From Impatiens glandulifera (lineage: Eukaryota > Streptophyta > Magnoliopsida > Ericales > Balsaminaceae): 64,000 bases of DNA. Under the pieces are notes generated by a model. The model ran no database searches and had not been told where the DNA came from. It was given only the letters and a program-made list of their open reading frames with translations. Shown piece after piece: positions 11,686 through 61,570 of the stretch. The stretch is from contig NC_061867.1 in the NCBI RefSeq assembly GCF_907164915.1, positions 45,232,242-45,296,241 on the forward strand, given 5' to 3'. Made by a program: the position numbers and the translations under genes. Position 1 is the first letter of the stretch, and each line of letters begins with the position of its first letter.

Positions 11686-11735
11686 AGGATCTTATTCTTT
11701 TAGTTTCCCCATGCACACAATTGCAGCCATGTACA
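11686..11735 (+). promoter_or_regulatory. Conserved MIR395 upstream block, copy A
   Basis: Holds 'ATCTTATTCTTTTAG' followed by CATGCACACAATTGCA. The same block, in miRNA-sense orientation, lies upstream of all seven MIR395 copies. Its factor is unknown; sulfate-starvation control through SLIM1/EIL3 is established for MIR395 in Arabidopsis, but I cannot match this block to a published site. Confidence 0.65.
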
Positions 11736-11770
11736 AAGCTCAAACTACTTCCGGCTTGTCCACAGATAGC

Positions 11771-11777
11771 TATAAAT
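11771..11777 (+). promoter_or_regulatory. TATA box of MIR395 copy A
   Basis: TATAAAT, 147 bp before the mature miRNA 5' end. It is conserved as 'ctataaatt' in five other copies. Confidence 0.65.
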
Positions 11778-11843
11778 TGGATTTGGTTTCACATAATAAT
11801 TGGATCATCAAGAAAATAGAACCCATAAGGTGAAGGAGTTAAT

Positions 11844-11948
11844 TGTCCCCTTGAGTTTCCCTTGGACACTTCAATGAGAATTGTAATTAAAACTCCAATG
11901 GAGTTATTAACAATCTACTGAAGTGTTTGGGGGAACTTAAGGTGGCAC
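11844..11948 (+). ncRNA. MIR395: MIR395 copy A: microRNA395 precursor
   Basis: The mature miRNA is at 11918-11938 on the 3' arm. Its core TGAAGTGTTTGGGGGAACT is that of plant miR395. The final base is T where canonical miR395 has C. The 5' arm (gtccccttgagtttcccttggacacttcaatgag, about 11845-11878) pairs with it over more than 30 positions with a few mismatches, leaving a loop of about 40 nt. Plant miR395 guides cleavage of ATP sulfurylase and SULTR2;1-like transporter mRNAs and rises under sulfate starvation (established knowledge). A TATA box and a conserved upstream block precede it. Folding and small-RNA evidence are not available here, but the mature match and complementary arm make the call strong. 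Confidence 0.93.
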
Positions 11949-12079
11949 TTAACATGACAGAAGTTCAAAACACATCAAATTTATTTCACATTCAGAGTGT
12001 GTCTTAATTAGATATACCAATAATTAAATAAAATGGATGATATGGGTTAAATTGAGTTTATATCTAATTATTAATTTTT

Positions 12080-12720
12080 TGTATGGTGTGCACGTCAAGG
12101 AAATGGAGGTGATCAACAGTGTCGTGTGCAGTCACAGGACCACTGCAGCCGGCTTTCGGCAAACAACCGCGACCCAGCCCAGGCGAAGACGGGACTAGAG
12201 CCTCGGACCCATGCGGAAGGCCAGACCACAGGCCCAACACGTGCAAGAAATAGGCCTAGACCCAAGAGCTTAGGGAGTCAATGTCCAAAGGCATGGTCAA
12301 CATCGCTCGACCGCAATATGCCTCGCGTCCGCGGCTTGCGACCAACACTGCCCCCTCATTTTTCCTCCTCGTGTAGGCATGGAAGTCAACTGCATGGCTC
12401 ATTTAAAAAGGCTGCCGGATTTCTATCTTCTTAATTTCTCTACTAAATGATAAGATTTAAAAAAGGAAAGGGACCCTCATGCGAGAGGGAACATTTCCCC
12501 ATATTCTCGTAGCGCGCTAGTGTCCACAGCGAGCCTATCTTTCCTTCCAGTCAGTCTAAGATTAACGACGAATTATGGTCGAGAGTGTGGAAGGCCATAA
12601 ATGGCTTCTGTCCCAAATTAGACCGAACTTTGAGACGATTCAAGGTCGGATGCCTTTAAAAGGATTCACATATCGTTTCAAATAGTGAAGAGGATTCACA
12701 TGTAGACGAGAAATGAAGCT
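12080..12720. other. GC-rich island of unknown origin
   Basis: About 640 bp of markedly GC-richer sequence within AT-rich DNA, beginning around 'gtgtcgtgtgcagtcacagg'. A 102-codon ORF at 12126-12434 (+) lies inside but has no recognised domain and a composition (Arg, Pro, Ser, Thr) typical of chance ORFs in GC-rich DNA. It interrupts the spacing between block Y copy 1 and the copia element. It may be an LTR or TRIM fragment; no ends were found. Confidence 0.45.
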
Positions 12721-15001
12721 CAATGAACAAATGTACCGATAAAATAAAATAAAAGAAGTTAGTTTAAAGGAGAGTAAAATCCAAACACTGTTATTTCAAA
12801 TTTATTATTTATATTTATAAATAATATTTTTTATGTTTTATATTTTACTTTTTTTTTGTATTAATTAAGGCAATGAAATGAAAAATATAACGAAAATAAT
12901 AAAACAAGATAAACAAACTGGCCCAAAGGCCAGTTGGCGGGTCGCTCGCGGGTGTGGTATGCGAGCTGGAGCAAGGGAAAAGGCTTAGTACTTTGTGTTA
13001 TTTATCTAATAAAGATTTCATGGTATAGGTCTAGGTGTATCATCACAGCAAGGTTAGGACAAACAACCAAATCTTATGCAACTTCAATAAAGATAATAAA
13101 AAAATGGATTTCAAAAGTAAATTGTAATCAATTTCAGAATATAATCAATCTGTAGTAACCAAACTAATGATAAAACAGTTACATATCTTGTCTTTAATTA
13201 AAAAAAATGTATATACATGATGTTACAAATAAATTAAATAAATTAGAATATATAAAGGACAAAATCACTAGAATATAATGTTGATTTGAGGAATGTATTG
13301 AACACATTTCCCTTAAAACAGTTACATCGTCTCCTGTTTGTGTTGAAGTTTATCTCAGATAACTGTCTCCCAAGGTACAACGAATCTAGTAATGATTCTG
13401 CACTGAAACCACCACGCATCGAATTTGATTAATGTACCTGAACTATCACCAGTTTTCAACGAAAAATATCGAGCAAAGAACTCGAAGAACACTCACAAAA
13501 TAAGAAGAGGGTTTTTGGAATTCTAAAGTGAGAAAAAATAAAAGATGAAATATTGTAAATAAATAAAAAATTGGTATATATTGCTGAAAATTAAACTTTC
13601 AAATAAAACATGCAAACGTTTATTAGAAATAATTACCCATTCATTTATCAATTAATATATAACTAATTAACATCTTTGCTTATACGTTCATTTGCTGAAA
13701 TGCAATGCTAGACATTAATTATTTCATTCTAGCTAATGAAAACTCCATACGTTATCAAACTAATTAAAGTCGAATGTTTATCATAACATTAAACTTTAAT
13801 TTTATAATTAGGCATTAAATATTAATTAAATAATTACTATTTAGTTATAATTTAGATTAAATTCACGTTAATTCACGTTTAAATTTGTGTGAATTTTATT
13901 TGATTTTAATTATTCATAATTTTATTTCCATTCATTAATGAAATTAGTTTAATTCCAACAATTTTCCATATTAATATAAATTGAAAGATTAACCCGGTGA
14001 AATGTTCAACAATTGAATTCTACATAGGATAGGTAGATGTAACACTTTGAACATTCTCTTATGAAAGTATATAATTTTACTAACCGATTAGTATAATCAA
14101 TGTCCTTGAACTATTCTGTCATTTGTGTAAACGATTACACACTTTTACATAGAATTCTCCATGATACATGTTAAACTCTCATGGTTGTGTCCGTTTTGGC
14201 CATGGAACACATGTCTAGCTCTCTGTGAGAGGATCTAGAATTGAGTCGTGCAATTCTTTCGAAGCGGCCCCAATTCTCCCTCACATAGGTGATCTTTTTG
14301 CTCATAAAGAATCATTAAAAATGATATGCTTATCCTCGTCAAAATATATATTATTTCATTATAAGATTAATCCTTAACAATAATTTTCCAAGTCAGTACA
14401 ATTAGGTTGTCCCATTAAACCTAGTTCTTGGGATCTCCAGTCTTCATATGTTGAGTTTTCATTCATATCAACTTATAGTTGACTCATGTCTTAAAAAACT
14501 TTCAAACTAACTCTCTATTCAATAATTTAGTTAGTGGATCCACAATGTTATCTTTGACTTATATAGTTAAATTTGATAACTCGATTGGAGAGTATAGTCT
14601 AATGACATTATGTTTAAGATTTGTATGTCTATACTTTGTCATTGACTCTAAGCTTGTCCAATTTCAAATTACTATCACAATAATTAGAAATTTCTGTTGA
14701 TACATTGTTAGTTAACCTTGTAACATCTTTTAATAAGAATCATAGTCATTCGTACAATTTTATCATTTAATTTTTTTATGAAAATATTGTTTACTTAGTT
14801 AACTAGAAGACAAAATGTCTTTGAACTATTATGTCTTATGTAAACGATTATATATATCTATATATATTACATAAAAATATTTTACTTTTCGACATAAGTC
14901 AAAAATATAGATTATAATGTTTAATTTATCCATCATAATTTTCTTAGAAGATTTCCATACATAGATTGCACTTCTATGTGTAAACATATTTACTTTTAGA
15001 T
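12721..15001. other. Interval with no gene seen
   Basis: Mostly AT-rich. A less AT-rich stretch at about 14160-14310 ('gtccgttttggccatggaacac', 'gcggccccaattctccctc') looks like degraded transposon DNA, but I cannot assign it. The phrase 'ttgaactatt.tgtc...gtaaacgatta' occurs twice (about 14104 and 14822), so part of it is duplicated. Confidence 0.4.
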
Positions 15002-15006
15002 GTTAA
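15002..15006 (+). repeat. Target-site duplication of the copia element, left
   Basis: GTTAA, identical to 19393-19397, directly abuts the LTR start. Confidence 0.9.
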
Positions 15007-15376
15007 TGTTGAGTTATGGAGCCTACACTTATAATAAACTCTACAATTATCAATTATAGTTTATTGAGTTTGTATTTGGTTTTGGGCTTGGGCCTGACCA
15101 AGAGTTATTTATGTTTTATTACCTTAATATTTACCCTATAAATATGTGATTATTAAGGGTTTACATAAGTTAGACAAAATTCTAGAGATATAAAGTGCGA
15201 GGCAAAAACTTTGTATTCCTTCTTTTTATTCATAATGAAATCTGGTGGCGGCTGAAGTGGACGTAGCTCAATTTGAGTGAACCTCTATAAATTTGTGTCT
15301 TCTTGTGTTCTTCTTTCTTGAGTGTTTTTATAGATCATTTCAGGCAGGTCGGATTTGGGAGATACAAATTCTAACA
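15007..15376 (+). repeat. 5' LTR of the copia element
   Basis: 370 bp, TGTTGAGTTATGG to ATTCTAACA, with a 'ctataaatatg' TATA-like element near 15136. Confidence 0.95.
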
Positions 15377-15378
15377 AC

Positions 15379-15390
15379 TTGAATCAGAGA
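15379..15390 (+). other. Degenerate primer-binding site of the copia element
   Basis: TTGAATCAGAGA starts 2 bp after the LTR. It resembles TTGGTATCAGAG, the initiator-tRNA-Met site used by most plant copia elements. Confidence 0.55.
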
Positions 15391-15415
15391 AGCTAGGCTA
15401 GATCTGAGCATTGGA

Positions 15416-15892
15416 AATGATGGAAAACGAGAACAGTTTAGGACACGGTATTAGAAGATTCGATGTGATAGATTATGTCTTCTAGAGGATGCAGATTGAA
15501 TATTATCTCTATGGAAAGAAGCTTCATATTCCTTTGAGTGAGAAACCAGAGAAGACGGATGAAGCTGAATGAAAACTCCTTGATAGACAGGTTTTGAGAG
15601 TTGTCCGATTGACGCTAACCAAGACAGTTGCTCACAATGTAGCAAAAGAGAAGACCACCATGGGTCTAATGAAAGCTCTTTCTAATATGTATGTGAAACT
15701 ATCTGCTAACAATAAGGTATATCTAATGAAATGACTCTTTTACTTAAGAATGGTTGATGGTACTTCTGTCACTACTCATTTAAACGAATTTAATACAATT
15801 GTGAATCAACTACTATCTGTTGAGATTGATTTTAGGGATGAAGTTAGTGCCTAATTTTGTTAGCATCTCTACCAAATAGTTGAGAACCTATG
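15416..15892 (+). pseudogene. Copia gag (UBN2-type) remnant
   Basis: In one frame from the ATG at 15416 the translation reads like a plant copia gag: 'RFDVIDYVF-RMQIEYYLYGKKLHIPL', then 'LDRQVLRVVRLTLTK', 'MGLMKALSNMYVK' and 'THLNEFNTIVNQLLS'. Stops interrupt it at the expected tryptophans ('F-W-x-M-Q' and 'E-W-K-L-L') and at three or more later sites. The CCHC zinc knuckle that should follow is missing: only about 25 bp separate the gag end from the protease, so a deletion has removed it. It encodes nothing functional now. Confidence 0.8.
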
Positions 15893-15912
15893 ATAGCCCG
15901 ATAGATTCATGA

Positions 15913-17205
15913 GTTTTGGACTCGGGAGCGTTTTTCCACACCACTCCCCACAAAGAATTAATGAAGAATTGTGTGGCTGGAAACTGTGGTAAGTTTATCT
16001 CACAGATGGTGAGCCACTAGATATTGTTGGCATGGGGGATATCAAATTGAAGATGGAAAATGGTTCTGTTTGGAAGATTAATAAGGTGAGACACATTTTA
16101 GGTTTAATGCGCAATCTGATTTCTGTTACACAACTTAATGAAGAAGGTCACAATTTCAGTTGTGGAAATAGTGCGTGGAGGGTGACTAAAGGAGCAATAG
16201 TTGTTGCTCGAGGTTACAAAACAGGAACGTTATACACGACTTCAACTTGTAGAGAAACATTTATTGCTGTAGTTGATGACTCAAAGAACAATGAGTTGTG
16301 GCATTGCAGGTTGGGCCATATGAGCGAAAAAGGGATGAAAATTCTTTTGAAGAATTGACAGATTCCAAAACTGAAGTCTGTTGAACATCAATTATGTGAA
16401 AACTGCATTCTTGGAAAATAGAAACGAGTGAGTTTCTTAAAGATTGGAAAGGAGCTCAAAAAGAAAGACTAAAGTTGGTACACACTGATGTGTGGGGACC
16501 TGCACCTGTTTCTTCTATTGGCGAATCATACAACTATGTGACTTTTATATATGATTCAACAAGAAAAGTATGAGTTTATTTTTTGAAACACAAGTCTGAA
16601 GTATTTGTTATTTTAAAGAAGTGGTAGACTTTGGTTGAAAATGAGACAAATCAGAAGGTTAAATGCTTAAGATCCGACAACAGAGGGGAGTACATCAGTT
16701 CATATTTCAAAGAATATTGTGATATAAATGGGATCAGTATGGTGAATACTATTCACAAACGCCTCAAGAGAATAGAGTAGTTGAACGAATGAATCGAACA
16801 TTGAATGAACGTGCTAGGAGCATGAGATTACATGCAGGACTGTCTAAAACTTTATGGGAAGAAGATATCAATATTGTTGCCTACTTGATAAACAGGGGAC
16901 CCTCTATTCCTCTTGAATTCAGAATTCCTAAAGAAGTCTGGAGTAATAAAAAGGTAAACATTTCTTATTTGAAAGTGTTTGGTTGTTTATCATATATTCA
17001 TATTAATGAATGTGATAGGAGCAATCATGATCCAAAATCTAATAAATATTTTTTTATTGGTTATGGTGATATCGATTTTGGTTATCGTTTCTGGGATAAT
17101 CAAAATCGGAAGATCATTCGTAGTAGAAATGTTATCTTCAATGAATAAGTTCTCTACAAAGATTATGTTGGGAAGGCATCAGATGGTGATTCTAAATTGA
17201 AAGAG
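15913..17205 (+). pseudogene. Copia protease and integrase remnant
   Basis: The protease active site D-S-G is at 15919-15927 ('VLDSGAFFHTTP'). After a frameshift the pre-integrase region is open at 16032-16358 (108 codons, 'ELWHCRLGHMSEKGMKIL'), and the 'LCENCILGK' that completes the HHCC zinc site follows a stop. The integrase core shows 'HTDVWGP' and 'SDNRGEY' (first and second acidic residues of D-D-E) with several stops. It then reopens at 16789-17148 (119 codons), which ends in the copia 'FGCLSYIHI' and 'FIGYGDIDFGYRFWD' motifs. Confidence 0.88.
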
Positions 17206-17489
17206 ACTAGTATGGTCGATTTGAGATAATTTTCAGCTAAATATATACTGACTATCGAAGAAGACCAGTGTGTTATTGAAGATGAAATCGTTGAGAACGT
17301 GGCCCTAGAGACAAATCAGCAAACACCGGTTATACAAATGAGAAGATCATCAAGGAATCGAAAACCAGTTGAGAGGTGGGCTCCATCTTTGAAATATATA
17401 TTGTTGATAGATAGAGGTAAACCTGAATGCTATGAGGAAGCAATATAATCTGATGAATCGGTTAAGTGAGAGTCTATGATGAAAGATGA

Positions 17490-18960
17490 GAGGGACTCTT
17501 TGACGTTGAATTAGACTTGGGAGCTCACTAAGCTACCAAAGGGAAAAAAAGCACTTCACAACAAATGGGTCTTCAGGATTAAAGAATAACATGATAAAAC
17601 CATGAGGTATAAGGCAAGATTGGTTGTGAAAGGATTTCAACATAAAGAAGGTATTGACTACAATGAGATCTTCTCTCCAATAGTTAAATTGATGACAATC
17701 AGAACTATTTTGAGTTTGGTTGTGAAAGAAGACCTTCATCTTCAACAAATGGATGTCAAAACTGATTTTCTTCATGGTGATTTAGATGAAGAGATTTACA
17801 TGCAACAACCAGAAGGATTTGAAATCAAAGGAAAAGATGAGCTTGTGTGTAAACTTTAGAAAAGTCTGTATGGTTTGAAATAAACTCCAAGACAATGGTA
17901 CATGAAGTTCGATATCTTCATGAAAAGTAATAATTTTCTAAGGTGTGAAGCTGATCATTGCTGCTATATCAAGAGCTTTGATAAATCGTACATTATTATA
18001 CTCCTATACGTTGATGACATGTTGATTGCTGGAGCAAGTTTGTATGAGATTAACAAGCTCAAGAAAGAGTTGTCTGAAAAGTTTGCAATGAAGGATTTGG
18101 GTGCTGCAAAACAAATCATTGGGATGAGAATTTTCAAGGATGGAGAAGTTCTCAAGCTTTTACAAGAAGAATATGTGAAGAGAGTTCTTAACAGGTTCAA
18201 CTTGTATGATGCAAAACCAGTTACCACCCCCTTAACTAGTCACTTCAGACTATCGAAAGATTAGTCGTCTTCAACAGAGGATGAAAAAATTACATGGACA
18301 CTATTCCATATGCCCTTACCATTAGTTGTATTATGTATGCGATGGTTTGTACAAGACCATACATAGCACATGCAGTGGGAGTTGTTAGCAGGTTCATGAG
18401 CAACCCAGGTAGACAACATTAATAATCAATAAAGTGGATACTACGATACTTAAGAGGAAGTACGAGTCTCACTTTGTGTTTTCGAAAGTCTAATATGGGT
18501 TTGGAAGGATATGTTGATGCTGACAATGGTGGTGATGTTGATAGTAGGAAGAGCACAACAAGGTACATTTATACTCTAAGAGGTACTGCAATCAGTTGGG
18601 TTTCAAAATTGTAGAAGATTGTTGCTCTTTTTAGTTGTGAGGAAGAGTATATTTTTGTGACAAAGGCTGCTAAGAAGATGATGTGGTTATAACCCTTTTT
18701 GCGAGAATTAGGTCAAGACTTTGAGAAGTGTGTTGCGATGCGACAGTTAGAGTCTCATTCATTTGGCAAAGAATCCAGTTTATCATGAAAGAACGAAGCA
18801 TATACATGTTCGTTATCATTTCATCTGGTTAGCTTTAAAAGATGGAGTATTAGCTCTTGAGAAGATTCTAGGGAGTGAGAATCCAACTGATATGTTGACG
18901 AAAGCTGTGACAAATGACAAACTGAAGTTGTGTGCAACTTCAGTTGGTCTTCTTCGTTAA
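17490..18960 (+). pseudogene. Copia reverse transcriptase and RNase H remnant
   Basis: The reverse transcriptase begins 'WELTKLPKGKKAL.NKWVFRIK' near 17519. The open part 17602-17859 has 'RYKARLVVKGF', 'FSPIVKL' and 'QQMDVKTDFLHGDL'. The part 17902-18264 holds the catalytic Y-V-D-D (18007-18018) and 'KFAMKDLGAAKQIIGM'. Stops fall at 'KSLYGLK' and at the following 'TPRQWY'. RNase H is recognisable at 18510-18660 ('GYVDADNGGDVDSRKSTT', 'AISWVSKL', 'SCEEEY') and the tail at 18763-18960 ends 'MLTKAVTNDKLK'. Most stops look like transitions from TGG, CAA/CAG or CGA codons. Confidence 0.9.
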
Positions 18961-19010
18961 GACACCGGATGGAAAATTGCCACCGATCTAGAGATGATAA
19001 AGTTAGTCTC

Positions 19011-19022
19011 CAAGTGGGAGAT
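19011..19022 (+). other. Polypurine tract of the copia element
   Basis: AAGTGGGAGATT directly precedes the 3' LTR start, the classic copia arrangement. Confidence 0.85.
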
Positions 19023-19392
19023 TGTTGAGTTATGAAGTCTATACTTATAATAAACTTTACAATTGTCAATTATAGTTTATTGGGTTTGTATTTGGTTTTG
19101 GACTTGGGTTTGACCAAGAGTTATTTAGGTTTTATTACCTGAATGTTTACTCTATAAATATGTGATTATTAAGGGTTTACATAAGTTAGACATAATTTTA
19201 GAGATATAAAGTGTGAGGCAAAAACTCTGTATTCTTTCTTCTTCTTCATAGTGAAATCTGGCGGCGGCTTAAGTGGACGTAGCTCAATTTGAGTGAACCA
19301 TTATAAATTTGTGTATTCTTGTGTTCTTCTTTCTTGAGTGTTTTTACAGATCATTTCAGGCAGGTCGGATTTGGAATATACAAATCCTAACA
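19023..19392 (+). repeat. 3' LTR of the copia element
   Basis: 370 bp, same length as the 5' LTR, ending ATCCTAACA. Confidence 0.95.
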
Positions 19393-19397: not shown

Positions 19398-20904
19398 GTC
19401 TTTCATTTAATAATATTAATATATCACTTGATAAGAGTATTATATTTTGTGTAGTGCAATTCACATCCTTAATGAATTTAATCATTTTTATCGTAATTTT
19501 CAACGATAAAAATATCGTACAAAAGACACGTAATGAATTATTTTTTATTGTCTTCATGATATATATAATTGTCACATTCACTCTTAATCAAAGTATGATC
19601 AAATTTTCATATCATTATTTTTCAAAAAAAAAAAAAATTTCATATCATTATTAAAAATTGTTATAAGTCATACAAAGACTTTATAAAAAAAATCATCTAT
19701 TTCATAAAACCATTTTGAAGACATTGGTTCTTCAATTTTTTTATGAGAGTAATGTCAAAGAAATGACATGTTTCTTGATCTCAAATCCTCAAATTTTAAA
19801 TATGGATTTAAACATCAACTCAACAAATATAAACAAGACATTTTCTTGTTATTTTATTTTTTTTATAAATTGCGCAACTTTATCTTTTATAGAGAACATA
19901 TTTTTCTAACAATAAATTATCCTTTTACATAATATACACAATTATTTGTGTATTATTATCAATAAATATATTTGCCCCCACAATTCATGTTGGTACCCTT
20001 TCTTTTAAAAAAATCACACACATTTATGATTTAAATCAATGATTTTCTAATCAAGAAAATGTCACACAATTCCTTTACAAATTTCTTTTGTTATACTTAT
20101 CATACAAAGAATAAGATAACATTATTATAAATATTTAATTGAATAAAACATAATTTCTATACAAGATATTAGAATATTTATTCATATATAAATCATTCTT
20201 CACATAATCTCTACATAAGAAATTATAATATTTAATCAATTAAAATATTTAATCAAATAAATATTCACCATGTCATATTATTTCTACAAAAGAAATCATA
20301 ATGTTTCAAACATCTTTGCCGAAGCCGCTTAAAAATTTATATTGGTTGCACGTTTGCATCCCATAATATCGACACGTTTGCCACATTATTTGTCAAATCA
20401 AACACAACTTTTCTGGTAATTAATAGATTTTAAAAACATCAAATTAAACAAGTCTTTATGATGAAATTGAACCATGTATATCAAATATATAATAAAATAA
20501 TATAATCAAATATGTCATATATATTATAATTACTTCATATATCATTAAGCAAATACCTTTCTAAAATACATCAATAATGGACAATTTATCTTTAATCAAA
20601 TATAAAATAACTAATTATTATAAATAATTATTCATGTCATCAATTCGTCAATTTCTTAATTAAAGATGACTTTTAACTTTCCGCAAAAGTTATTGTATAC
20701 CAAAAGAAACAATAATGTTACGAAAAAATTTAGAATATTTTATTAAAACAAATTAGATATACAATAATATTTATTCACGTGTATATATATAAATAACAAT
20801 TTAATCATACATATTATGAATTAACACAATTTACATGTATAAGCAATCACTTAGTAACACAATATATATAACTACAAATGTTACACTGTATTTGGTTCTG
20901 CATC
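19398..20904. other. AT-rich interval with no gene seen
   Basis: Strongly AT-rich, with chance ORFs of low-complexity composition only. Confidence 0.5.
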
Positions 20905-22140
20905 ATGTTTAGCCGGATCAGATTTTTCATCTCGGATTTTTGTAATTCGAATAATACTCATATCCACTGGTGGGTTGTTTGTTATTCATATTCTCCGATT
21001 GTATTATTGATCTTTTCTCAAATTTGTGTTTGTCTCCTTCTGAACAAAAAAAAATGAAATAATCGAATATGAAGTTATTTTTTATTTTTCAGCAAAGAGT
21101 TACCAGTACTGGTATTTCATATAAAGACCCTTTTATATGTATTCTGTCATAATTTGTATAAGTTTTTAACTATTTTGATCATATATGTGGATTGTTCATC
21201 ATCATTTTATTCGGCCCTTCATCGTTCTGGAACTTGACTAAGTTCGTTTTTAGAGTGATCCTTAACGAATTGTATAATCGTTGGATCTTTTCCATTAAGA
21301 ATTTTATTTTTATAAATTGTTAATACAATTTTATTTCTAACTATCAATGGTTTATTTTGATTTTGTTTATATTATTTTGTATTATTTATTAATTAATTTT
21401 TTATGTTTAAATTTCAATTGAAAATAATAAAAAAATAATACTTTATCACCCAAAAAAAATTAAAAAAAGAATTATTAGTCAACAAGTAACTTAATTGAAG
21501 ATAAGTTAATAATAGAGAATCAAACTTAAAATGAAAATAGTAAAACATTAGTCAAAAGTATTTTAGATTAAATATTTTCAAATTCCCAACATTTTTAAAT
21601 AACTTCATTAATAAATCATATATAATAAAAAAAGAAATCATGACAATAAAATAATTTATTAAGTTAAATGAAAGAAATATGATAAAAAAAAAGTAATTGA
21701 CAAAAATGTAAAACTATTAATATTATGTTGGCCAAACAAACATTCTGATTAACATACAATTATGATTTTTTATGAAAACAAAACCATTAAAACAATATAT
21801 TTCCTAGAATCATTATTTTTGGATGTTAAAGAGAAGGTTAATTCATTATAAACTTGGAAAAAGTATTATCTGAAATAAGATTCCCTGAAGATAACTTGAG
21901 ATTACAAATTTTATTGGGTAAGTAAACCAAGATTTTAGAATAAAAATGGACACATTAAGTACCAAACTAACACTCCACCGAGTGTTTTGTGAATTCTTGA
22001 ACCAAGAAAATTGAAGAGAAAGTGCTAGACTAGGTTCAACGTCTGTTCCTAGACATAGAGATAGGATAGATACAGAAAAGATCTGGTATGTGGGTCATTT
22101 TGGAATTTTGAGCATGATTTCTCTAATTTTACATTCTTAA

Positions 22141-22190
22141 AGTATCTTATTCTTTTAGCTTCCCCATGCACACAATTGCAGCCATGTACA
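22141..22190 (+). promoter_or_regulatory. Conserved MIR395 upstream block, copy B
   Basis: 'TATCTTATTCTTTTAGC' then CATGCACACAATTGCA; nearly identical to copy A. Confidence 0.65.
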
Positions 22191-22225
22191 CAGCTCAAAT
22201 TACTCCCAGCTTGTCCACAGAAAGC

Positions 22226-22232
22226 TATAAAT
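22226..22232 (+). promoter_or_regulatory. TATA box of MIR395 copy B
   Basis: TATAAAT in the context agctataaattgg, 147 bp before the mature miRNA as in copy A. Confidence 0.65.
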
Positions 22233-22298
22233 TGGATTTGGTTTCACATAATAATTGGATCATCAAGAAAATAGAACCCATAAGGTGAAGGAGTTAAT

Positions 22299-22403
22299 TG
22301 TCCCCTTGAGTTTCCCTTTGACACTTCAATGAGAATTGTAATTATAACTCCAATGGAGATATTAACAATCTACTGAAGTGTTTGGGGGAACTTAAGGTGG
22401 CAC
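22299..22403 (+). ncRNA. MIR395: MIR395 copy B: microRNA395 precursor
   Basis: The mature miRNA at 22373-22393 is identical to copy A, including the terminal T. The 5' arm (about 22301-22333, 'ccccttgagtttccctttgacacttcaatgag') differs from copy A by a G to T change. The loop differs at a few bases. It is a sister of copy A within the duplicated block Y, now 10.5 kb away because of the copia insertion and other DNA. Function as for the family: sulfate-assimilation control through ATP sulfurylase and sulfate-transporter mRNAs. Confidence 0.93.
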
Positions 22404-22669
22404 TTAACATGATAGAAGTTCATAACACATCAAATGTTTTTCAAATTTAGAGTGGATCTTAATTAGTATTAAACATTTCTTTTTCCAGAAGGTAACATGA
22501 CCCCACAACCATGACTTTTCGCTTCCATTTAAGAAGTTCTAAATAAGAATCGAACTCGTAATTTTCGGTCTCATAGGAACTACGTACTTTTAGCACTTGA
22601 GATACCTTCTTCAAATATAAGTTAATTAAATTATTGTTGGCGTAATTGAATTGTACTTTATACAACAAG

Positions 22670-28950: not shown

Positions 28951-30540
28951 AAAAATCCATTTAAATGGATGGGCTAAACACGCCCCCGTAAGAAAATCAC
29001 ATTTTTCTACGGCTGGATAAAAAAGTATCTATAACTTGATAGAAAACCAATTACTACATTGATGTAGAAATTTTTTATCAAAAAATCGTATATGTACTTA
29101 AAATAGCTCTAGGATGAAGATAATGATTGTGGTATCGTAATAACTTAATAATAAGCCATCTATCAAGACATGAAAGTCTTGTATAGACGCAATAGTCATC
29201 AATCAGGTGACAAGTTCTGTACCTGGATAAATGTTAAGTGTGTTTATGGGCTATTTGTTTAACCCGCGTGGATTACTCGCACTCCATAGGAGAAGCGGAA
29301 GCCAATGTTCTAAAAAAATTTCCTCTAGTCTTCTTTGTTTTATTTTTTTTTATATTTGATATTTTAAATGCCTCAAAATTATTTTTACAAAATTTAAATA
29401 AAAATATGAAATGCGTTTAAAATATTTTTAGAACATTTAATAAAAACATATTTCATTAAAGACTTGTTTTAATTTATTTTTAAATCTAACCCCTTTAATT
29501 GATATTTTTAGGTATTGATTTTTATAATTTTCGACATCAATAACATCTGATATTTTTATAATTTGATGGCATTTTCCTGTTAGTTGTCTGCAACAATTGC
29601 TATAAGCTCCGTGAAATTGGTAATTCCAAAATGAAGATCGACATCTTGGAACTCTTTGGATTCCATAGACAGAAAATGACTAATATAATATATAACAGTT
29701 GGGATCAAATTGTTTGGTTTGGTGTTTGCACTTTGCACACCGCGCACTCAACTTTCTTGGATTCCATTGATGTAAAGAAACGAGAGTTAATAATCAAATT
29801 TATAAAGGATGTTTAAGGGATGGATAGTTTTGATATTGTGATATACCTTTGGAGAATCCCTTCTTTATATATAGAGTATATGAGAAAAAGTTTAATTAAT
29901 GGGTGGTTGAATTTTAGGAAAAAAACTTTATAATAAATAAATAGTAAGATAACAATTTGTAATCTCCTATAATAAATAGGAATAAATAAATCATTGGTTA
30001 TCCTTAACTAAAATGTTGTAATATATATTTATCAAAAGAACCATCATTGTCTTTTTATTGCGACTAGGACATTAATTAGATATCCAAAACTAATATGAAT
30101 ATTTGTACATTCATTCCTTAGCCGATAAGAAGAATTTTTCCTTGTTTGTTTAAATAATATCAAGATGAAGGTCGATGAATAAATTGAACAAGAGCCGAAG
30201 TGGGGCCCCTCGGTGTTGCCATATAGAAAAACAGGACCATGTCAAACGAAATCATTTCATGATAAAATGCCTAAAAAAGTTCAAATGGAATAAATCAAAA
30301 TATAAAATTATATTTAATTTATTTTAATATTATTAGTTATATATTGTATCCAAATATCCAAATAATCCACATTTTATATCAAATGTTTTTTAAATGACTA
30401 GCTAATTTATTATTCAAATCATCCTACATCAAACAAATCTCATATTCCCAAAATGATGTTCTTACCTCTTCTTTGTATGTATCCTATCTCTAAGACTAGA
30501 TCTAAGTCTAACATATCTTGTTAAGGCTCTTTGTAAGTAT
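28951..30540. other. Interval with no gene seen
   Basis: AT-rich with short chance ORFs and no recognised repeat. Confidence 0.4.
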
Positions 30541-32121: not shown

Positions 32122-32195
32122 TAGTCCCGGCGGGGCTCGAACCCGCGACCTTCGGCTCATAAGACCAACGCTCTAACCAACTGAGCTACGGGACT
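32122..32195 (-). tRNA. tRNA-Ile (anticodon UAU)
   Basis: On the - strand the sequence folds as a full cloverleaf. The acceptor AGTCCCG pairs with CGGGACT over 7 bp, and the D arm is GCTC...GAGC. The anticodon stem TTGGT/GCCGA has two G-U pairs, and the loop is CTTATGA. The T arm is GCGGG-TTCGAGC-CCCGC. The anticodon is TAT (plus-strand 32159-32161), decoding AUA isoleucine. There is no intron and no encoded CCA. A T-run (AAAA on the + strand at 32113-32116) just downstream can end Pol III transcription. The GC-rich gene stands out in AT-rich DNA. Confidence 0.9.
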
Positions 32196-32536: not shown

Positions 32537-33352
32537 TTTATGGGTCAGGCTTAAAATAATGCTTATATATCACGTGGTTATGAGTTATAATATAATTAAT
32601 TATATATAAATATTTATATGTGGTTATGATAAAATACTACTCCTTACTTTATTGTTAAAGTCAATGGGGTCTCGGAATGCTAATTTAAAGAGGGGTATTG
32701 TTAATGTCATATTTTTGTTCATCAGAAAAATCATTAAATGTATCATGTCTAAACTCATTATATCTCATCCATTCCACCCTAAATTCAGTAAAGGTATTCC
32801 TAAAGTTTGATGAAGCTTGCTTAAACAAAATTAAGGTCACATTGATTATGTTTTTTTTTTTTTTTTTTTATCTTAGTGGTTTAAATATTATTTACAAGGA
32901 AGAAAAAAGCTCCTTTGGTTTTCTAAGAAGTGTAAATCAATCCTGACCGGTTGTGTTCTGGTAGATTATTTGATTGGAAATATAGATAAAAGGTTCTTTT
33001 ATAATAAAGATGTGACATTGAAGGATCATTTACACGTGTTTTTCTAAAAATAATTACAATAGGATATTAGTCATTTAAGTCTAACGTCAAAAACTATAAA
33101 AAAAAACACGAGTGTTTAAAGTACCATAAGTATAACCGCTATCTTATAATCCTACTATTTTTAAAAAAAATAAATCTGCATATTTCATATTCCAAATTAC
33201 AACTTATATTGGAAAAATAAAAAATTGTATTGATGGAATGGCCAACAAAAACACTTATGTAGTAAGAATTCAACTCAAAATTAGTACACTCATTAAAAAG
33301 ACAATATTTCCTCTTCTCCCTAATGATGAAGAACTTTATAACTAATCATGTC
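32536..33352. other. Interval with no gene seen
   Basis: AT-rich, including a T19-type run near 32850. The 82-codon ORF at 32698-32946 has no domain. Confidence 0.4.
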
Positions 33353-33353
33353 A

Positions 33354-33465
33354 AGTGTCACCCAGAGTTCCCCCAAACACTTCAGTGGGCTTGTTTATCT
33401 CTTAGACAATAACAACAATTTACCATTGAAGTGTTCATGGGAAACTCGAGGGGAGAACTGACTTT
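33354..33465 (-). ncRNA. MIR395: MIR395 copy C: microRNA395 precursor
   Basis: The mature sequence is on the - strand at 33365-33385 and is the canonical form ending ...GAACTC. The complementary arm lies at about 33424-33455 (plus strand 'cattgaagtgttcatgggaaactcgagggg'). The loop (plus strand 'tgggcttgtttatctc...caatttac') differs from both the A/B and D/E/G groups, so C is the most separate member. A TATA box and the upstream block are kept. Target set as for the family. Confidence 0.93.
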
Positions 33466-36035: not shown

Positions 36036-36794
36036 ATATATATATGTAGGTAGGCAGATGTACAAATGCATGTTTCGTTACATGACAAGCCATACATTCA
36101 AAAGTTCCATTTTTGTGGGGAGTTCTCCTTTAATTCCAATTTACATTTTGTTCACTATGCTTTAGGACATGATAATCAATGTTGGATACCACCTAAAGCT
36201 GTTGTAACTTATATAGTCTAGTATTCACCTCCCAAATTTGTGTTCAAAATTTGTATGCATCTGCCAAATTGATATTCAAGAAGATTTCAAAACTTAATAC
36301 AGTACTATATAAGAACATAAACGCCTCTAAGTTTAGAGTTTGAGCTGAGTCTAAATGTGGATAAGAAACTGAAAAATAATTTATGTTTGCATTTCTAGTT
36401 ACATTTCATTTGAACAAGTTTATCGAATTTTTAAATTGTCATTTTTAATGTATAAAATTAAAAATAATATTAAAGTTGTCATTTTCAATTTATAAATAGT
36501 AATAATAATAATTTATTAAAATTACATATTTTTTAAGAAAATATAATTAAGAGATAAGAAAAGAGGAAGAAGGAAATTGAATTAGGATGAGAGACGAGAC
36601 TAGACTAGTTGAGAGTCCTTTAATTGTTTGTGGAGAAAACCCATTTTCCAAATCTTATTCATTACACAATATAAAGGATGAAATTAAAAAAAAATATATA
36701 TTATTAGTAGTTGTAAACTGCAACACTTATTAGATGTGTCTCTTCTACAAAGATCCAAGGTTTAAGTACGTACATTGATCATCTTCTCCAGGTC

Positions 36795-36900
36795 AGGTGA
36801 CTCCCTGAGTTCCCCCAAACACTTCAGTAGATTACATAAAGTATACAACAACTTAATTCCATTGAAGTGTCTAAGGAAAACTCAAGGGGACAATTGACTC
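36795..36900 (-). ncRNA. MIR395: MIR395 copy D: microRNA395 precursor
   Basis: The mature canonical miR395 is on the - strand at 36807-36827 (3' arm). The 5' arm at about 36861-36895 reads, in sense, 'tccccttgagttttccttagacacttcaatgg' and pairs over its length. The loop (plus strand 'tagattacataaagtatacaac') is shared with copies E, F and G. TATA box and upstream block are present. Confidence 0.94.
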
Positions 36901-36953
36901 CTCTTTCTCAGTTCTACTTTCTTGATGAATTATTCACAATGGATGAGATGAAA

Positions 36954-36965
36954 TCAAATTTATAG
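36954..36965 (-). promoter_or_regulatory. TATA box of MIR395 copy D
   Basis: On the - strand 'aactataaatttg', about 135 bp before the mature miRNA. Confidence 0.6.
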
Positions 36966-37020
36966 TTTTTTTGGCGGTCATCAACCATTCTTTGGAGCAA
37001 GAAGTAGATTTGAGTCTTGA

Positions 37021-37070
37021 ATATGGATGCAATTGTGTGCATGGTGAAGGTAAAAGAATAAGATCTTGGA
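37021..37070 (-). promoter_or_regulatory. Conserved MIR395 upstream block, copy D
   Basis: In sense: 'AAGATCTTATTCTTTTACC', then 'TTCAC', then CATGCACACAATTGCA. Confidence 0.65.
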
Positions 37071-37990
37071 GTTGGTGGTGGTCCATGTATGAACCTTTTT
37101 TATGTAGAGAGAAAGAGTTAACTGTTGTAGGAAATAGAATCCATGCCCAAAATTCCAGCATGATACTCTTATTGGGTCTCCTTTATGTATATATCCCATC
37201 TTTATGGCTAGATACAAACCCAATCGAGCATTTTCTTTTGGTAAGGCTGATATTTATCATTCTTCAACTCGATTGGCTAAGAAATGCACAACCCACCAAT
37301 GCATATTCTTTCCAAACAATTACTAACTAGGTCAAAAAGGCAATAGTTTTGTTCTTGATCCTCTAATATGTCCATAATGGAAACTAACATATAAATTTGA
37401 TGGGTTATTAATTTGAAAATATTTGGAAGTTTAAAATTGCAAACCATTTGTTAGCGACTCGTGTCTAGATTTCTATGTTTGATGGCACACTTTAAATATT
37501 AGTGAGGTCTATAGCAAGATAGTTAAAATCGAGAATTTATTTAAATTATTATTATCGGTTGTAAACGTGTAAAATCAATAATTTACTTAAATGATAAGAG
37601 TTTGATTGAAAAATGTATTAGTTATATATTATTATTATTTATATATAATTAAGTACTTTAAATACTGACAATTTAAAAATAAAAATATTTAATTATAAAA
37701 TAATTGAATAAGTACTGTAACAAATTTATTTAATTATATTAATTCATTTTTTTAATAAATTATAAATTTTGTTTAATTTATAAATATAATTTTTTAATAT
37801 AAAAATGTAAAATCAAAATTTGGTAAACTTAAAATCGTAAAACTTTAACTAAGAAAATTTTAAATCACTAGCTATTAGCTAGTATTCACAAATTGTAACA
37901 TCGTATAATATTTTTACAAATTCAATTGACATTTTTTGTTATAAAAGAAAACATAGTAAATAGAACTCAGTTATGGATGCATTGTTTTAT

Positions 37991-38823
37991 CCAACATAAA
38001 TAATATAAAAACAAAGCCCTTAAAATATTATATATTAATATATTATATATTAATATAACACAAAATTCTTAAAATATTAAAATATTTCATATTTAACTTT
38101 TTCTAATATTTAAAAAAAATATTTATATATAATTGTTATTTCATTTTTAAGTTTTTATATTTTAATTTCATTATTAATATAAAATATTTAAAATTAATTA
38201 CATAAAAATATTATATTATTATTATTAGTTATTGTAATTATTATTAAATTTTATTTTATTAATTATATTTTATTTTAAATAATTTCTTGATATTATTTAA
38301 ATATTTGAAATAATTGAAATAATTTTTTAAATAAATTAATTAAAAAATTTATTATTATTTTAATTATAAAATAACATCTAATATAATTATAAAAGAATAT
38401 ATATATATATATATAATATTATAATTATAATTATGAGAGTGAACGTGTGAGAGGGACATCATAGGAGAGAAAGTGCATCACACAGAAATTAGATTCATTC
38501 TTTCCAATTTAGAGAGGAATGGATGATTCCTGAGTATCAGTAATCAAATAAATGTGTTGGAATAAAACTCATCAACCAAACACCTCATTGTATTCTCTTT
38601 CTCATTTTTTAGTACAAAACCACGTACCAAGCATCCTCTTTGATTATTTATATATTAGATTATTTGTATGTTAGATTATTGGATTAATTAGATATGTTGA
38701 TTGTAAAATTTTGAATTGTTTGTTTGAATATTTGATTAATTAGATATGTTAATTGTAAATTTTTGGATTGTTTGTTAGATTATTGGACTAGCTAGGTATA
38801 TGAATGATTTAGGAAGGATGTAC
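37991..38823. other. Very AT-rich interval with no gene seen
   Basis: Low-complexity A/T, including a (TA)n run near 38399-38416. Confidence 0.5.
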
Positions 38824-42548: not shown

Positions 42549-42982
42549 AAAAAAGAGAAAATGGCAAATGGAAAACCAAAAAATAAAGTCAATAGGCCTC
42601 TATAAAATATATTAGGATGAGTTTGACTTTCAAGAAATTTGGTTCAGAACCGGGAAACCAAAAATAGTCGCACACATGTCAAAACATTTTTTTGACTATT
42701 TTCTCCGAGGGTTTGATTCTGATAATTTTTTGTACACGAGATTGAATTTATAGATGATATCTCAAAAGTTATGGAAAAAAATATTATTCATTGATGAAAT
42801 AAAAATCATTACAAAGGACGGAAAAGATGTTCAAAGCCTAACCTTGAATATGTTTCGAATCCAAAAATATCATGATTCATTCATAGGGAACAATGTCCAT
42901 TCTAATCTCGAAAAACGGAGAAAAAAGGATAGGAACTGGAAGAACAAAAAAATGTTTCTTTATCCAAAAACATTTGTCAATA

Positions 42983-51848: not shown

Positions 51849-52049
51849 TGTTAGAATAAAGAGAAATTGTATTAGAATGATATATATTGAATTACATAAG
51901 TTATGTCTATTATATAGACATTACATTGAGCATATAAGGAAACTAATAATATAATATAATATTGATATAATATAATATACTAATGATATTATCACAATTT
52001 ATAATATTGTGATAATATCTTACATTATATATTATCTTATATTCTAACA
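51849..52049 (-). repeat. 3' LTR of the TRIM element
   Basis: 201 bp, bounded TGTTAG/CTAACA. Confidence 0.93.
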
Positions 52050-52060
52050 TCCCTCCTCAA
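52050..52060 (-). other. Polypurine tract of the TRIM element
   Basis: TTGAGGAGGGA on the - strand, directly next to the 3' LTR. Confidence 0.8.
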
Positions 52061-52149
52061 ACTCAAGATGGAAAATGCTTAATCAACTTGAGGTTGAAGA
52101 CGAGATGATGAAATGTTGATGTTGTATTCTTCAAACTTCAAAAACTCGT

Positions 52150-52420
52150 GAGCTCCATCCAGTTAAAGGATGGCAGTGTGTTGACGGATAAACCAACAAA
52201 GAGGTAGAATCCCATAGGAATAGAATACTGGGGTGAAACAACAACCGAATGAACTCCAAAGTTATTCGCGAGTCTCGAAATCCATCCAACGACGGGATGG
52301 CAGTGTGTTGCATTAAAGAAAACCAGCGAAGAAGGTATGTAGAATCCCATGGAAATAGAATGTTGGAGTGAAACAACACTTGTAAAACCCATTCTAACGA
52401 GAGAATGACAGTGTGTTGAC
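52150..52420 (-). repeat. Tandem repeat inside the TRIM interior
   Basis: 'atggcagtgtgttg' or a close variant recurs at about 52169, 52296 and 52407, with 'gtagaatccca..g.aatagaat' between. Period about 108-126 bp, 2.3 copies. Confidence 0.8.
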
Positions 52421-52694
52421 TAAATAATCAGTAATAAACACATATGATTGGATTAACACCAAAAAATATGGCATTAACTATTGGGATAAAGCAACAACTG
52501 AAAACAAACTCAGAGAATATGATTGTCGAAAAAAATAAGAATATCAACATAATTATTTGAAAGAAGAAAATATTATTAAGAGATAGTAATAATAATTAAT
52601 AAAAAAATATTAGAGCCCTCCATTAATGGCTAAAGTAACCATTGATGGAGGCAGCGGAAGACTATCACTTAATTGACTCAAGAACGATAATAAG

Positions 52695-52706
52695 ACTCTG
52701 ATACCA
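52695..52706 (-). other. Primer-binding site of the TRIM element
   Basis: TGGTATCAGAGT on the - strand, complementary to initiator tRNA-Met, immediately inside the 5' LTR. Confidence 0.88.
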
Positions 52707-52907
52707 TGTTAGAATATAGAGAAATTGTATTAGAATGATATATATTGAATTACATAAGTTATGTCTATTATATAGACATTACATTGACCATACAAGGAAA
52801 CTAATAATATAATATAATATTGATATAATATAATATACTAATTATATTATCACAATTTATAATATTATGATAATATCTTACATTATATATTATCTTATAT
52901 TCTAACA
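52707..52907 (-). repeat. 5' LTR of the TRIM element
   Basis: 201 bp, same ends as the 3' LTR. Confidence 0.93.
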
Positions 52908-53580: not shown

Positions 53581-53779
53581 TCATTCACTATACAATATTA
53601 AGGATGAAAATAAAAATAATATATATTATTATTAGTTGTAAATTGCAACACCTAGTAGGTTCCTTGTTATTGAAGTAGGTAAGGAAAGAGACCTACTTAA
53701 ACTTGAAATATTATAATTAACTAAACTTACCATTCCTACAGCCACGATTTTCATACTTGCATAGTTTACATGCAGTTGA

Positions 53780-53781
<2 letters not shown>

Positions 53782-53832
<51 letters not shown>
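53782..53832. repeat. (TA)n microsatellite in unit E
   Basis: About 25 TA units. The matching place in unit G has only a short 'ctatatatatatc'. Confidence 0.95.
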
Positions 53833-53835
<3 letters not shown>

Positions 53836-53998
53836 ATTGCCCCTGAATCAGGATACCATGTTGGTTGTGTGTGTTGCAATCAAGTCAGATTGTTGAGTAG
53901 TTCAATTAAATGAGTTTAACCTTATCATATCTCTTACATAGATCCGTTCCTTCTGTAAGGATCCAAGGTTTAAGTACATCGATCATCTTCTCAATGTC

Positions 53999-54103
53999 AG
54001 GTGACTCCCTGAGTTCCCCCAAACACTTCAGTAGATTACATCAAGTATACAACAACTTAATTCCATTGAAGTGTCCAAGGAAAACTCAAGGGGAAAACTG
54101 ACT
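53999..54103 (-). ncRNA. MIR395: MIR395 copy E: microRNA395 precursor
   Basis: Mature canonical miR395 is on the - strand at 54011-54031, 3' arm. The 5' arm is at about 54064-54096 (sense 'ccccttgagttttccttggacacttcaatgg'). The hairpin is nearly identical to copy G and differs from D at single bases in the loop and star. TATA box and upstream block intact. Confidence 0.94.
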
Positions 54104-54154
54104 CCTCCTTCTCAGTTCTACTTTCTTGATGAATTATTCACAATGGATGAGATC

Positions 54155-54166
54155 AAATTTATAGTT
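54155..54166 (-). promoter_or_regulatory. TATA box of MIR395 copy E
   Basis: On the - strand 'aactataaatttg', as in copy D. Confidence 0.6.
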
Positions 54167-54220
54167 TTTTTGGGTGGTCATCAACCATTCTTTAGAGCAA
54201 GAAGTAGATTTGAGTCTTGA

Positions 54221-54270
54221 ATATGGATGCAATTGTGTGCATGGTGAAGGTAAAAGAATAAGATCTTGGA
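54221..54270 (-). promoter_or_regulatory. Conserved MIR395 upstream block, copy E
   Basis: Same sequence as copy D. Confidence 0.65.
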
Positions 54271-55250
54271 GTTGGTGGTGGTCCATGCATGTATGTACCT
54301 TTTTTATGTAGAGAGAAAGAGTTAACTGTTGTAGGAAATAGAATCCATGCCCAAAATTCCAGCATGATACTCTTATTGGGCCTCCTTTATGTATATATCC
54401 CATCTTTATGGCTAGATACAAACCCAATCGAGCATTTTGTTTTAGTAAGGCTGATATTTATCATTCTTCAACTCGATTGGCTAAGAAATACCCACCAATG
54501 CATATTCTTGCCAAACAATATTACTAAATAGGTCAAAAAGGTAATAGTTTTGTCCTTGATCCTCAAATATGTTCTACTCTACATATGCTAACTTGTTAGT
54601 CCAATATGGAAACTAACATATAAATTTGATGGGTTATTAATTTGAAAATATTTACAAGTTTACAACTGCAAACCATTTGTTAGCGACCATGTCTAGATTT
54701 TAATGTTTGATGACACGCTACAAATATTAGTGACGTCTATAACAAGATAGTTAAAATCGAGAATTTACTAAAATTATTATTATTAGTGGTAAATTCGTAA
54801 AATCAATAATTTATTTAAATGGTAAGAGTTTGATTTACAAATGTATTAATTATATATTATTATTATTATTTATATATAATTAAGTACTTTATATATTGAT
54901 AATTTAAAAATAAAAAATATTTAATTATAAAATAATTTAATAAGTAAATAACACTATAAAAAATTATTTAATTTATTTAATTATATTAATTCATTTTTTT
55001 GAATAAATTATAATTTTTTTTTAATTTATAAATATATTTTTTTAATGTTAAAATTTAAAATCAAAATTTTGTAAAAACACGTAAAACTGTAATAATTTAA
55101 TTAATTTAAGAATTTTTTAAATCAGACTAGCTATTAGTATTCTCAAATTGTAAAATCGTATAATTTTAAAAATTAAGTCGACATTTTCTTGTAATAGAAG
55201 AAAACATGGTAAATACAAGTCAGTTATAGATGCATTGATTTATCCAATTT

Positions 55251-60317: not shown

Positions 60318-60408
60318 GTTTTAACTGAGTTTAAGCTTAGTACAACTACTAAATAGATTTCTCTTTTAAAAGGATCCAAGGTTTAAGTACATCGATCATC
60401 TTCTCCAT

Positions 60409-60505
60409 GTGTGACTCTATGAGTTCCCCCAAACACTTAGTAGATTACATCAAATATACAACAACTTAATTCCATTGATGAATTAAGTGGACAACTGGCT
60501 CCTCC
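60409..60505 (-). pseudogene. MIR395: MIR395 copy F: decayed precursor
   Basis: The miRNA region on the - strand (60421-60440) has lost one base of the canonical sequence near its 5' end (plus strand 'cacttag' instead of 'cacttcag'). About 20 bases of the complementary 5' arm are deleted: after 'ttccattga' the sequence goes straight to 'tgaattaagtggacaac', where the others have 'agtgtccaaggaaaactcaaggggacaac'. The foldback can no longer form properly. The TATA context is also lost ('caaagttttatta' replaces 'caaatttatag'). No functional miRNA is expected. Confidence 0.88.
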
Positions 60506-60628
60506 TTCTTAGTTCTACTTTCTTGATGAATTATTCACAAAGAATGAAACCAAATCAAAGTTTTATTAAATTTTATTTTGGTGGTGATCCAGCATTATTT
60601 GGACCAGGAAGTAGAATTTGAGTCTTGA

Positions 60629-60677
60629 ATATAGATGCAATTATGTGCATGGTGAAGATAAAAGAATAAGATCTTGG
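60629..60677 (-). promoter_or_regulatory. Remnant of the conserved MIR395 upstream block, copy F
   Basis: 'AAGATCTTATTCTTTTATC' and 'catgcacataattgca', each with one or two changes. Confidence 0.5.
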
Positions 60678-61294
60678 AGTTGGTGGTGGTCCATATATGT
60701 ACCTTCTTTATGTAGAGAGAAAGAGTTAACTGTTGTAGGAAATATAATCCATGACCAAAATTCCAGCATGATACTCTTATTGGCCTCCTTTGTGTAAACA
60801 TCCTTATCTTTATGGCTATGTACTATCCCAATCGAGCATTTCCTTTTGGTAAGGCTTATATTTATTAAGGATGAGAATAAAAATAATTCCCAATCGAGCA
60901 TTCACTACACAATATTAAGGATGAAAATAAAAATAATATATATTATTATTGGTTGTAAATTGCAACACTTAGTAGGTTTCTTGTTATTGAAGTAGGTAAG
61001 GAAAGAGGTCTACTTAAACTTGAAATAATATAATTAACTAAACTTACCATTCCTACAGCCACAATTTTCATACTTGCATAGTTTACATGCAGTTGAAGAT
61101 CATCTATATATATATCAGTTGTTAGGTTATCTATTGCCCTGAATCAGGATACCATGTTGGTGGTGTGTGTTGCAATCAAGTCAGATTGCTGAGTAATTCA
61201 ACTAATTGAGTTTAAGCTTATCATATCTCCTACATAGATCCGTTCCTTCTAAAAAGATCCAAGGTTTAAGTACATCGATCATCATCTGAATGTC

Positions 61295-61400
61295 AGGTGA
61301 CTCCCTGAGTTCCCCCAAACACTTCAGTAGATTACATCAAGTATACAACAACTTAATTCCATTGAAGTGTCCAAGGAAAACTCAAGGGGACAACTGACTC
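61295..61400 (-). ncRNA. MIR395: MIR395 copy G: microRNA395 precursor
   Basis: Mature canonical miR395 is on the - strand at 61307-61327, 3' arm. The 5' arm at about 61361-61395 pairs as in copy E, with the sense strand reading 'tccccttgagttttccttggacacttcaatgg'. Loop identical to copy E by eye. TATA box and upstream block are present. A retrotransposon LTR sits about 460 bp upstream of the mature sequence and could affect its expression. Confidence 0.94.
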
Positions 61401-61453
61401 CTCCTTCTCAGTTCTACTTTCTTGATGAATTATTCACAATGGATGAGATGAAA

Positions 61454-61465
61454 TCAAATTTATAG
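61454..61465 (-). promoter_or_regulatory. TATA box of MIR395 copy G
   Basis: On the - strand 'aactataaatttg', same spacing as D and E. Confidence 0.6.
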
Positions 61466-61520
61466 TTTTTTTGGGTGGTCATCAACCATTCTTTGTAGAA
61501 AGAAGTAGATTTGAGTCTTG

Positions 61521-61570
61521 AATATGGATGCAATTGTGTGCATGGTGAAGGTAAAGAATAAGATCTTGGA
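61521..61570 (-). promoter_or_regulatory. Conserved MIR395 upstream block, copy G
   Basis: As in D and E, with one A missing in the 'ttcttttacc' part. Confidence 0.65.

Follow-up and report, generated by a model that had tools for sequence, protein, structure and literature searches.

The 64,000-nucleotide stretch of the Impatiens glandulifera genome analysed here (NC_061867.1, positions 45,232,242 to 45,296,241, hereafter the window) is very probably part of a large plant MIR395 cluster, whose intact copies look like separate TATA-driven genes that multiply by duplication and decay. miR395 is a well-known plant microRNA (miRNA) that tunes sulfate use. The window contains seven copies, A to G; A and B are on the + strand and C, D, E, F and G on the - strand.

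MIR395 hairpins in the window

Seven matches to the miR395 core (six exact; F differs from a 16-mer at three positions) compare with 0.19 expected by chance, and none of 100 shuffles reached seven. Six of the copies score 61.6-69.4 bits with the Rfam family RF00451, above its gathering score of 56, and copy F gave no RF00451 match in the window scan, even at E<=1. The copies are as follows (MFE, minimum free energy; z, fold stability relative to shuffles; TATA positions relative to the miRNA):

11838..11953, +: MIR395 copy A hairpin, mature sequence 11918-11938 (CTGAAGTGTTTGGGGGAACTT); RF00451 64.6 bits; MFE -50.8, z -8.3; 2 unpaired mature bases
22293..22408, +: MIR395 copy B hairpin, mature sequence 22373-22393 (..AACTT); RF00451 61.6 bits; z -8.1
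33350..33462, -: MIR395 copy C hairpin, mature sequence 33365-33385 (..AACTC); RF00451 67.0 bits; z -4.9; TATA at -147
36792..36898, -: MIR395 copy D hairpin, mature sequence 36807-36827; RF00451 69.4 bits; z -5.5; TATA at -137
53996..54102, -: MIR395 copy E hairpin, mature sequence 54011-54031; RF00451 63.2 bits; z -5.9; TATA at -132
60405..60500, -: MIR395 copy F, decayed relict; no Rfam match; z +1.43; TATA box missing at the homologous position
61292..61398, -: MIR395 copy G hairpin, mature sequence 61307-61327; RF00451 64.4 bits; z -7.0; TATA at -137

The mature 3'-arm sequence of miR395, CUGAAGUGUUUGGGGGAAC.., is present in six of the seven, F having a 1-nt deletion. Its form is CTGAAGTGTTTGGGGGAACTC (..AACTC) in the four copies C, D, E and G; in A and B it ends in ..AACTT, and its 20-nt core is identical at 20 of 20 columns among the subfamily representatives A, C and G. 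When each precursor was folded, six proved stable (z from -4.9 to -8.3, none of 200 dinucleotide shuffles reaching the same stability), with one or two unpaired mature bases apiece, and F proved unstable, 189 of its 200 shuffles being as stable or more. The criteria for plant miRNA genes that Axtell and Meyers reportedly set out in 2018 ask for few mismatches between the miRNA and its star arm; the same six copies have few, and F does not. When the six hairpins are aligned, 35 consensus pairs are retained, two of them with changes on both sides, and F lacks ~12 nt of the star arm in addition to the 1 nt of the mature arm. The first-pass annotation, made from the letters of the window, is thereby borne out in its identification of a MIR395 cluster, in the number and strands of the copies and in the six retained complementary arms; its span, 11686-61570, fits the outermost A-to-G alignment at 11688-61565.

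The AACTT form is that of miR395a of Beta macrocarpa (PMC5643120), and its letters also occur in an Acacia paper. Among the viral contigs and prokaryote contigs searched, the 21-nt mature pattern had 0 exact matches. Some candidates were rejected: matches to MIR6288, MIR4372, MIR4378, mir-1277 and mir-297 (at 53.8 and 56.4 kb) fell far under their cut-offs and overlap an AT repeat or a palindrome, a weak profile match at 30440-30501 (score 20.4, bias 9.7) was dropped, and the other weak MIR395 profile rows in the window come from the hairpins in opposite-strand reading, apart from one match at E 1.8.

Two genomic clusters, duplicated blocks and transposons

A search of the host genome (654 Mb, 1110 contigs, in which the window is C6:45232242-45296241) found the 19-mer core 21 times, 15 times on C6 (45.225-45.405 Mb) and six times on C1 (35.03-35.10 Mb). 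The RF00451 cut-off was passed at no fewer than 22 loci, 17 on C6 and five on C1, a lower bound obtained by scoring 47 of the first-look candidates. On C6 the cluster spans ~180 kb with 17 hairpins over the cut-off, in the strand order +++ --------- + - +++, and continues beyond both window ends. Therefore the two facing groups of the first-pass annotation hold as strands inside the window, but they are partly an effect of its edges. Searching 240 kb of C6 with a profile returned 21 rows, which correspond to 19 units, since two units gave two rows apiece. Besides the 17, these comprise F and a unit at 45306241-45306448 that ends before the mature arm. One + strand hairpin over the cut-off (C6:45362684, L017:7684) has a mature sequence with an extra A (..GGGGGAAACT).

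A FastTree analysis of the 24 units containing a 13-nt core (18 from C6 and six from C1) places A and B in one clade with the nearest copy outside the left end of the window (support 1.0), and splits D, E, F, G and four - copies to the right from the rest (0.999). The - copy at 45359682 groups with the + copies at 45378843 and 45405015 (0.764) and with 45375546 (0.447). Strand changes would come about by inversion, and this mixed-strand grouping makes it likely that more than one inversion took place in the C6 cluster. The second cluster (L001-L006, G000:C1:35029814-35103458) holds five near-identical + copies over the cut-off, four of which have a weaker hairpin ~1.2 kb off that faces outwards when read on the - strand. 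These divergent partners reach 27.5-44.9 bits on either strand, all short of 56, the cut-off (L004 scores slightly higher in its + reading), and in three of the four aligned the mature arm contains a 2-nt insertion.

Self-BLAST delimited the following duplicated blocks in the window:

10352..12011, +: duplicated block A; partner 20878-22466, 79-85% identity in two pieces
20878..22466, +: duplicated block B; partner of block A
36731..37994, -: duplicated block D; partner 53939-55247, 86.7% identity
53582..55247, -: duplicated block E; 53582-54499 pairs with the G block 60899-61794 (90.5%), and 53939-55247 with D
60322..60868, -: duplicated block F; adjoins G and matches 61203-61759, 83.5%

The blocks around the copies align over ~0.3-1.8 kb (the alignment of genome pieces listed those of at least 300 bases), and they indicate that the copies grew by local duplication. 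Three mobile elements are relevant here:

15007..19392, +: Copia element between A and B; long terminal repeats (LTRs) 91.9% identical, 5-bp flanking repeat GTTAA
38813..40286, +: CACTA-type DNA transposon remnants (Transpos_assoc, Transposase_21)
51849..52907, -: short TRIM-like element between D and E; terminal repeats of 201 bp, identical at 97.5%, and CCTTG repeats on either side

A mobile element that captured a MIR395 gene and spread its copies could in principle have produced such a pattern, given that transposon domains occur in the A-B and D-E intervals and a sub-threshold gag match in B-C. However, the genome searches placed MIR395 copies at only two loci (the counts being lower bounds), and the Copia element has flanking repeats of its own. 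Moreover, the Kimura two-parameter (K2P) distance between terminal repeats is 0.087 for the Copia element and 0.025 for the TRIM-like element, smaller than the respective flank distances of 0.196 and 0.221 for A/B and 0.12 for D/E; the E/G flanks differ by 0.105. Both elements therefore landed after the duplications they lie between, and, being younger, they separated copies and did not carry them. Carriage by a transposon is thus extremely unlikely in our estimation. The earlier proposal of a spread by segmental duplication among transposons is thus supported in part: the copies did spread by duplication, and the duplications are local.

Of the 28 stop-to-stop open reading frames (ORFs) of at least 105 amino acids in the window, 21 were scanned with Pfam as unspliced frames. 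Transposon families account for eleven, in part with matches under the curated cut-off, one has a sub-threshold match outside transposons (MerF, probably by chance), and nine are without a match. The matches comprise Copia, CACTA, LINE-type zinc-binding and Tc5-type domains, three sub-threshold Transposase_32 matches and the sub-threshold gag. Copia-type gag-pol ORFs lie left of the window (L010:1842-6993) and are followed, at 262-5508, by three tandem Transposase_32-like ORFs (below the cut-off) and a 768-amino-acid ORF; all of these are perhaps one long element. A protein search with one transposon ORF had no match at E<=0.001 among 198 candidates. Six ORFs on C6 beyond the window were also scanned, and the sole host protein domain among them is a cytochrome P450 coding exon (L022:5826-7046, -; PF00067, 6e-55).

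Probable promoters and selective constraint

A TATA box lies 132-147 nt upstream of the miRNA in all six intact window copies, and none is present at the homologous place in F. The proximal upstream regions of the two + copies are:

11683..11837, +: copy A proximal upstream region; TATA box 11771-11776, at -147; A/B upstream slower than flank, p=1.2e-4
22138..22292, +: copy B proximal upstream region; TATA box 22226-22231, at -147; same A/B test

Separate promoters have to be weighed against polycistronic precursors, in which several hairpins are transcribed from one promoter. Rice MIR395 clusters are compact and probably have one promoter each (PMC2812943), and those of maize are also compact, with one strand per cluster, although rapid amplification of cDNA ends missed miR395 transcripts there (PMC2773440). 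In the window, on the contrary, neighbouring intact hairpins are 3.3-17.1 kb apart, which makes a single shared transcript unlikely, each has its own TATA box, and the strands are mixed. Only F and G are less than 1 kb apart (797 bp), and F is decayed. The rice-type arrangement of same-strand hairpins less than 1 kb apart is thus absent from the window cluster, and we find polycistronic precursors scarcely credible in this case.

We compared the hairpin (-80 to +34), the upstream region (-235 to -81) and the flank (the remaining duplicated block) in recent copy pairs; the region boundaries were chosen once the alignment had been seen, the pairs share sequences, gaps were excluded, and the p-values are uncorrected for multiple tests. 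A and B differ at 3/115 positions of the hairpin (2.6%, p=3.9e-5) and 7/155 of the upstream region (4.5%, p=1.2e-4), against 134/885 of the flank (15.1%). The corresponding differences are 1/115 (p=3.8e-4), 3/154 (p=5.2e-4) and 62/621 for E/G, and 4/115 (p=0.027), 3/154 (p=8.5e-4) and 29/278 for D/G. For D/E they are 5/115, 2/150 (upstream p=1.3e-4) and 93/932. All three pairs of F, with D, E and G, lack such slowing relative to the flank (p 0.12 or higher): hairpin, upstream region and flank differ at 9/115, 21/148 and 36/263 in F/G, at 9/99, 19/155 and 32/278 in E/F, and at 11/99, 20/155 and 28/261 in D/F. Copy F is best read as a pseudogene, because its star arm is mostly lost, its TATA box is lost, its mature arm has a deletion and it evolves like flank. 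Copies A, B, D, E and G are, from these substitution patterns, best read as still under selection.

Alternatively, the whole array might be a relict, in which most copies are unexpressed pseudogenes that keep a hairpin only through their youth. The decay of F, the C6 unit at 45306241-45306448 that ends before the mature arm, the 2-nt insertions in three of the four aligned C1 partners and the lack of a TATA box in some C6 and C1 copies would fit such a history. The slower change of hairpin and upstream region relative to their own flanks in A/B, E/G and D/G, and of the upstream region in D/E, does not, and we consider a relict array very unlikely.

Several observations nonetheless weigh against separate, TATA-driven and sulfate-controlled genes. 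The D/E hairpin taken alone gives p=0.06, and copy C is without a recent partner for comparison. Beyond the window, 9 of the 11 other C6 hairpins that pass the cut-off have a TATA box at -160 to -110, and none of the five C1 + copies does; the box is usual on C6, not universal. The EIL-like half site YGWWYCTAG is upstream of the six copies, yet it is weak evidence because it occurs 17 times in the whole window, and the exact EIL site, AYGWAYCT, is upstream of C only (1/7). Additionally, the window contains no match to the full UPE-box (consensus AG[GA]T[TA]CATTGAA[TC]CT[AG]GAC[AG], from PMC9229004) with up to 3 mismatches allowed. Only a subset of sulfur-responsive genes is known to have UPE-boxes (PMC4212615), so the missing full box remains compatible with SLIM1 control. 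The UPE half CATTGAAYCTRG, with at most 1 mismatch, occurs six times in the window, where 1.55 occurrences are expected and none of 100 shuffles attained six; three of the six are upstream of A, B and C.

The upstream region of the subfamily representatives also contains a short conserved block, located ~110-160 bp before the base of the hairpin (~-240 to -190 relative to the miRNA), in which 40 of 50 columns are identical in A, C and G, a value reached by 26 of 5000 column shuffles. For widths of 30, 40, 50 and 60 columns the shuffles reaching the observed clustering were 290, 55, 26 and 32 of 5000, and at 20 columns it was not significant (1494 of 5000). Since its strength depends on the width chosen, the claim is post hoc and modest. 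The block is a candidate sulfate-response element which, if true, would account for what the missing UPE-box leaves unexplained. A bolder proposal, in which the 17-hairpin C6 cluster serves as a dosage device, the -240 to -190 block is a previously undescribed promoter block and putative sulfate-response element, and the strand-differing subfamilies are used in different tissues, seems to us unlikely as a whole.

How separate MIR395 genes would work is suggested by the known biology of the family. In each intact window copy a TATA-box promoter directly upstream would drive a ~110-nt hairpin, from which DCL1 would cut the 21-nt 3'-arm miR395. Sulfate shortage would raise transcription via SLIM1/EIL3, and miR395 would then direct cleavage of the ATP sulfurylase and SULTR2;1 mRNAs. 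Induction by low sulfate depends on SLIM1, directly or indirectly, and cleavage of both mRNAs is reported (PMC4206189, PMC4212615); all six Arabidopsis MIR395 genes are sulfur-inducible by promoter-green fluorescent protein fusions, according to a review (PMC8910084). Copies would meanwhile multiply by local duplication, some switching strand by inversion, transposons would land between some of them, and those no longer needed, such as F, would decay.

Other features of the window were recorded. An intact-looking tRNA-Ile(TAT) lies at 32122-32195 (-), ~1.2 kb downstream of copy C; neither the rest of the window nor the 18 C6 pieces retrieved showed another tRNA. The G+C fraction is 0.42-0.46 in the first 8 kb and 0.23-0.34 in the remainder. 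A tandem satellite-like array at 42961-43983 has units of ~52, 76 and 104 bp with AAACCCTAT motifs.

Comparison with known MIR395 clusters

Arabidopsis, rice, maize, lettuce and soybean all have known MIR395 clusters (PMC5344913, PMC8910084, PMC2812943, PMC2773440, PMC8739914, PMC3481472). The cluster described here is of this ordinary type and a good annotation find. We found no publication on this particular cluster, a weak negative since the search was not by species. It leaves existing knowledge of miR395 unchanged and adds an annotated large MIR395 cluster, with 17 hairpins on one contig and at least 22 loci over the cut-off genome-wide. Moreover, it offers a clear example of the birth of copies, their separation by transposons and their decay.

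The closest parallel for the facing copies is soybean, in which MIR395 underwent tandem and tail-to-tail duplications (PMC3481472); the family, the local duplication and the facing of some copies are shared, and the opposed arrangement that the first-pass annotation thought might be new is therefore already known. The I. glandulifera cluster has 17 hairpins over ~180 kb. In lettuce, four clusters with 13 of 21 members lie on one chromosome (PMC8739914), and there too the family expanded by tandem and then larger duplications on one chromosome. Arabidopsis MIR395a-c and d-f (PMC5344913, PMC8910084) are likewise clustered, and their sulfur induction was followed with a reporter for each gene; the difference is that the Arabidopsis genes number six, divided between two clusters. 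Rice and maize (PMC2812943, PMC2773440) share the same miRNA and clustering by duplication. Maize hairpins, however, are 48-580 nt apart with one strand per cluster (PMC2773440), whereas here the distances are mostly kilobases and both strands are used. Finally, for Arabidopsis, rice and poplar taken together, miRNA clusters below 1 kb mostly keep to one strand, and opposite-strand pairs number four (PMC2812943).

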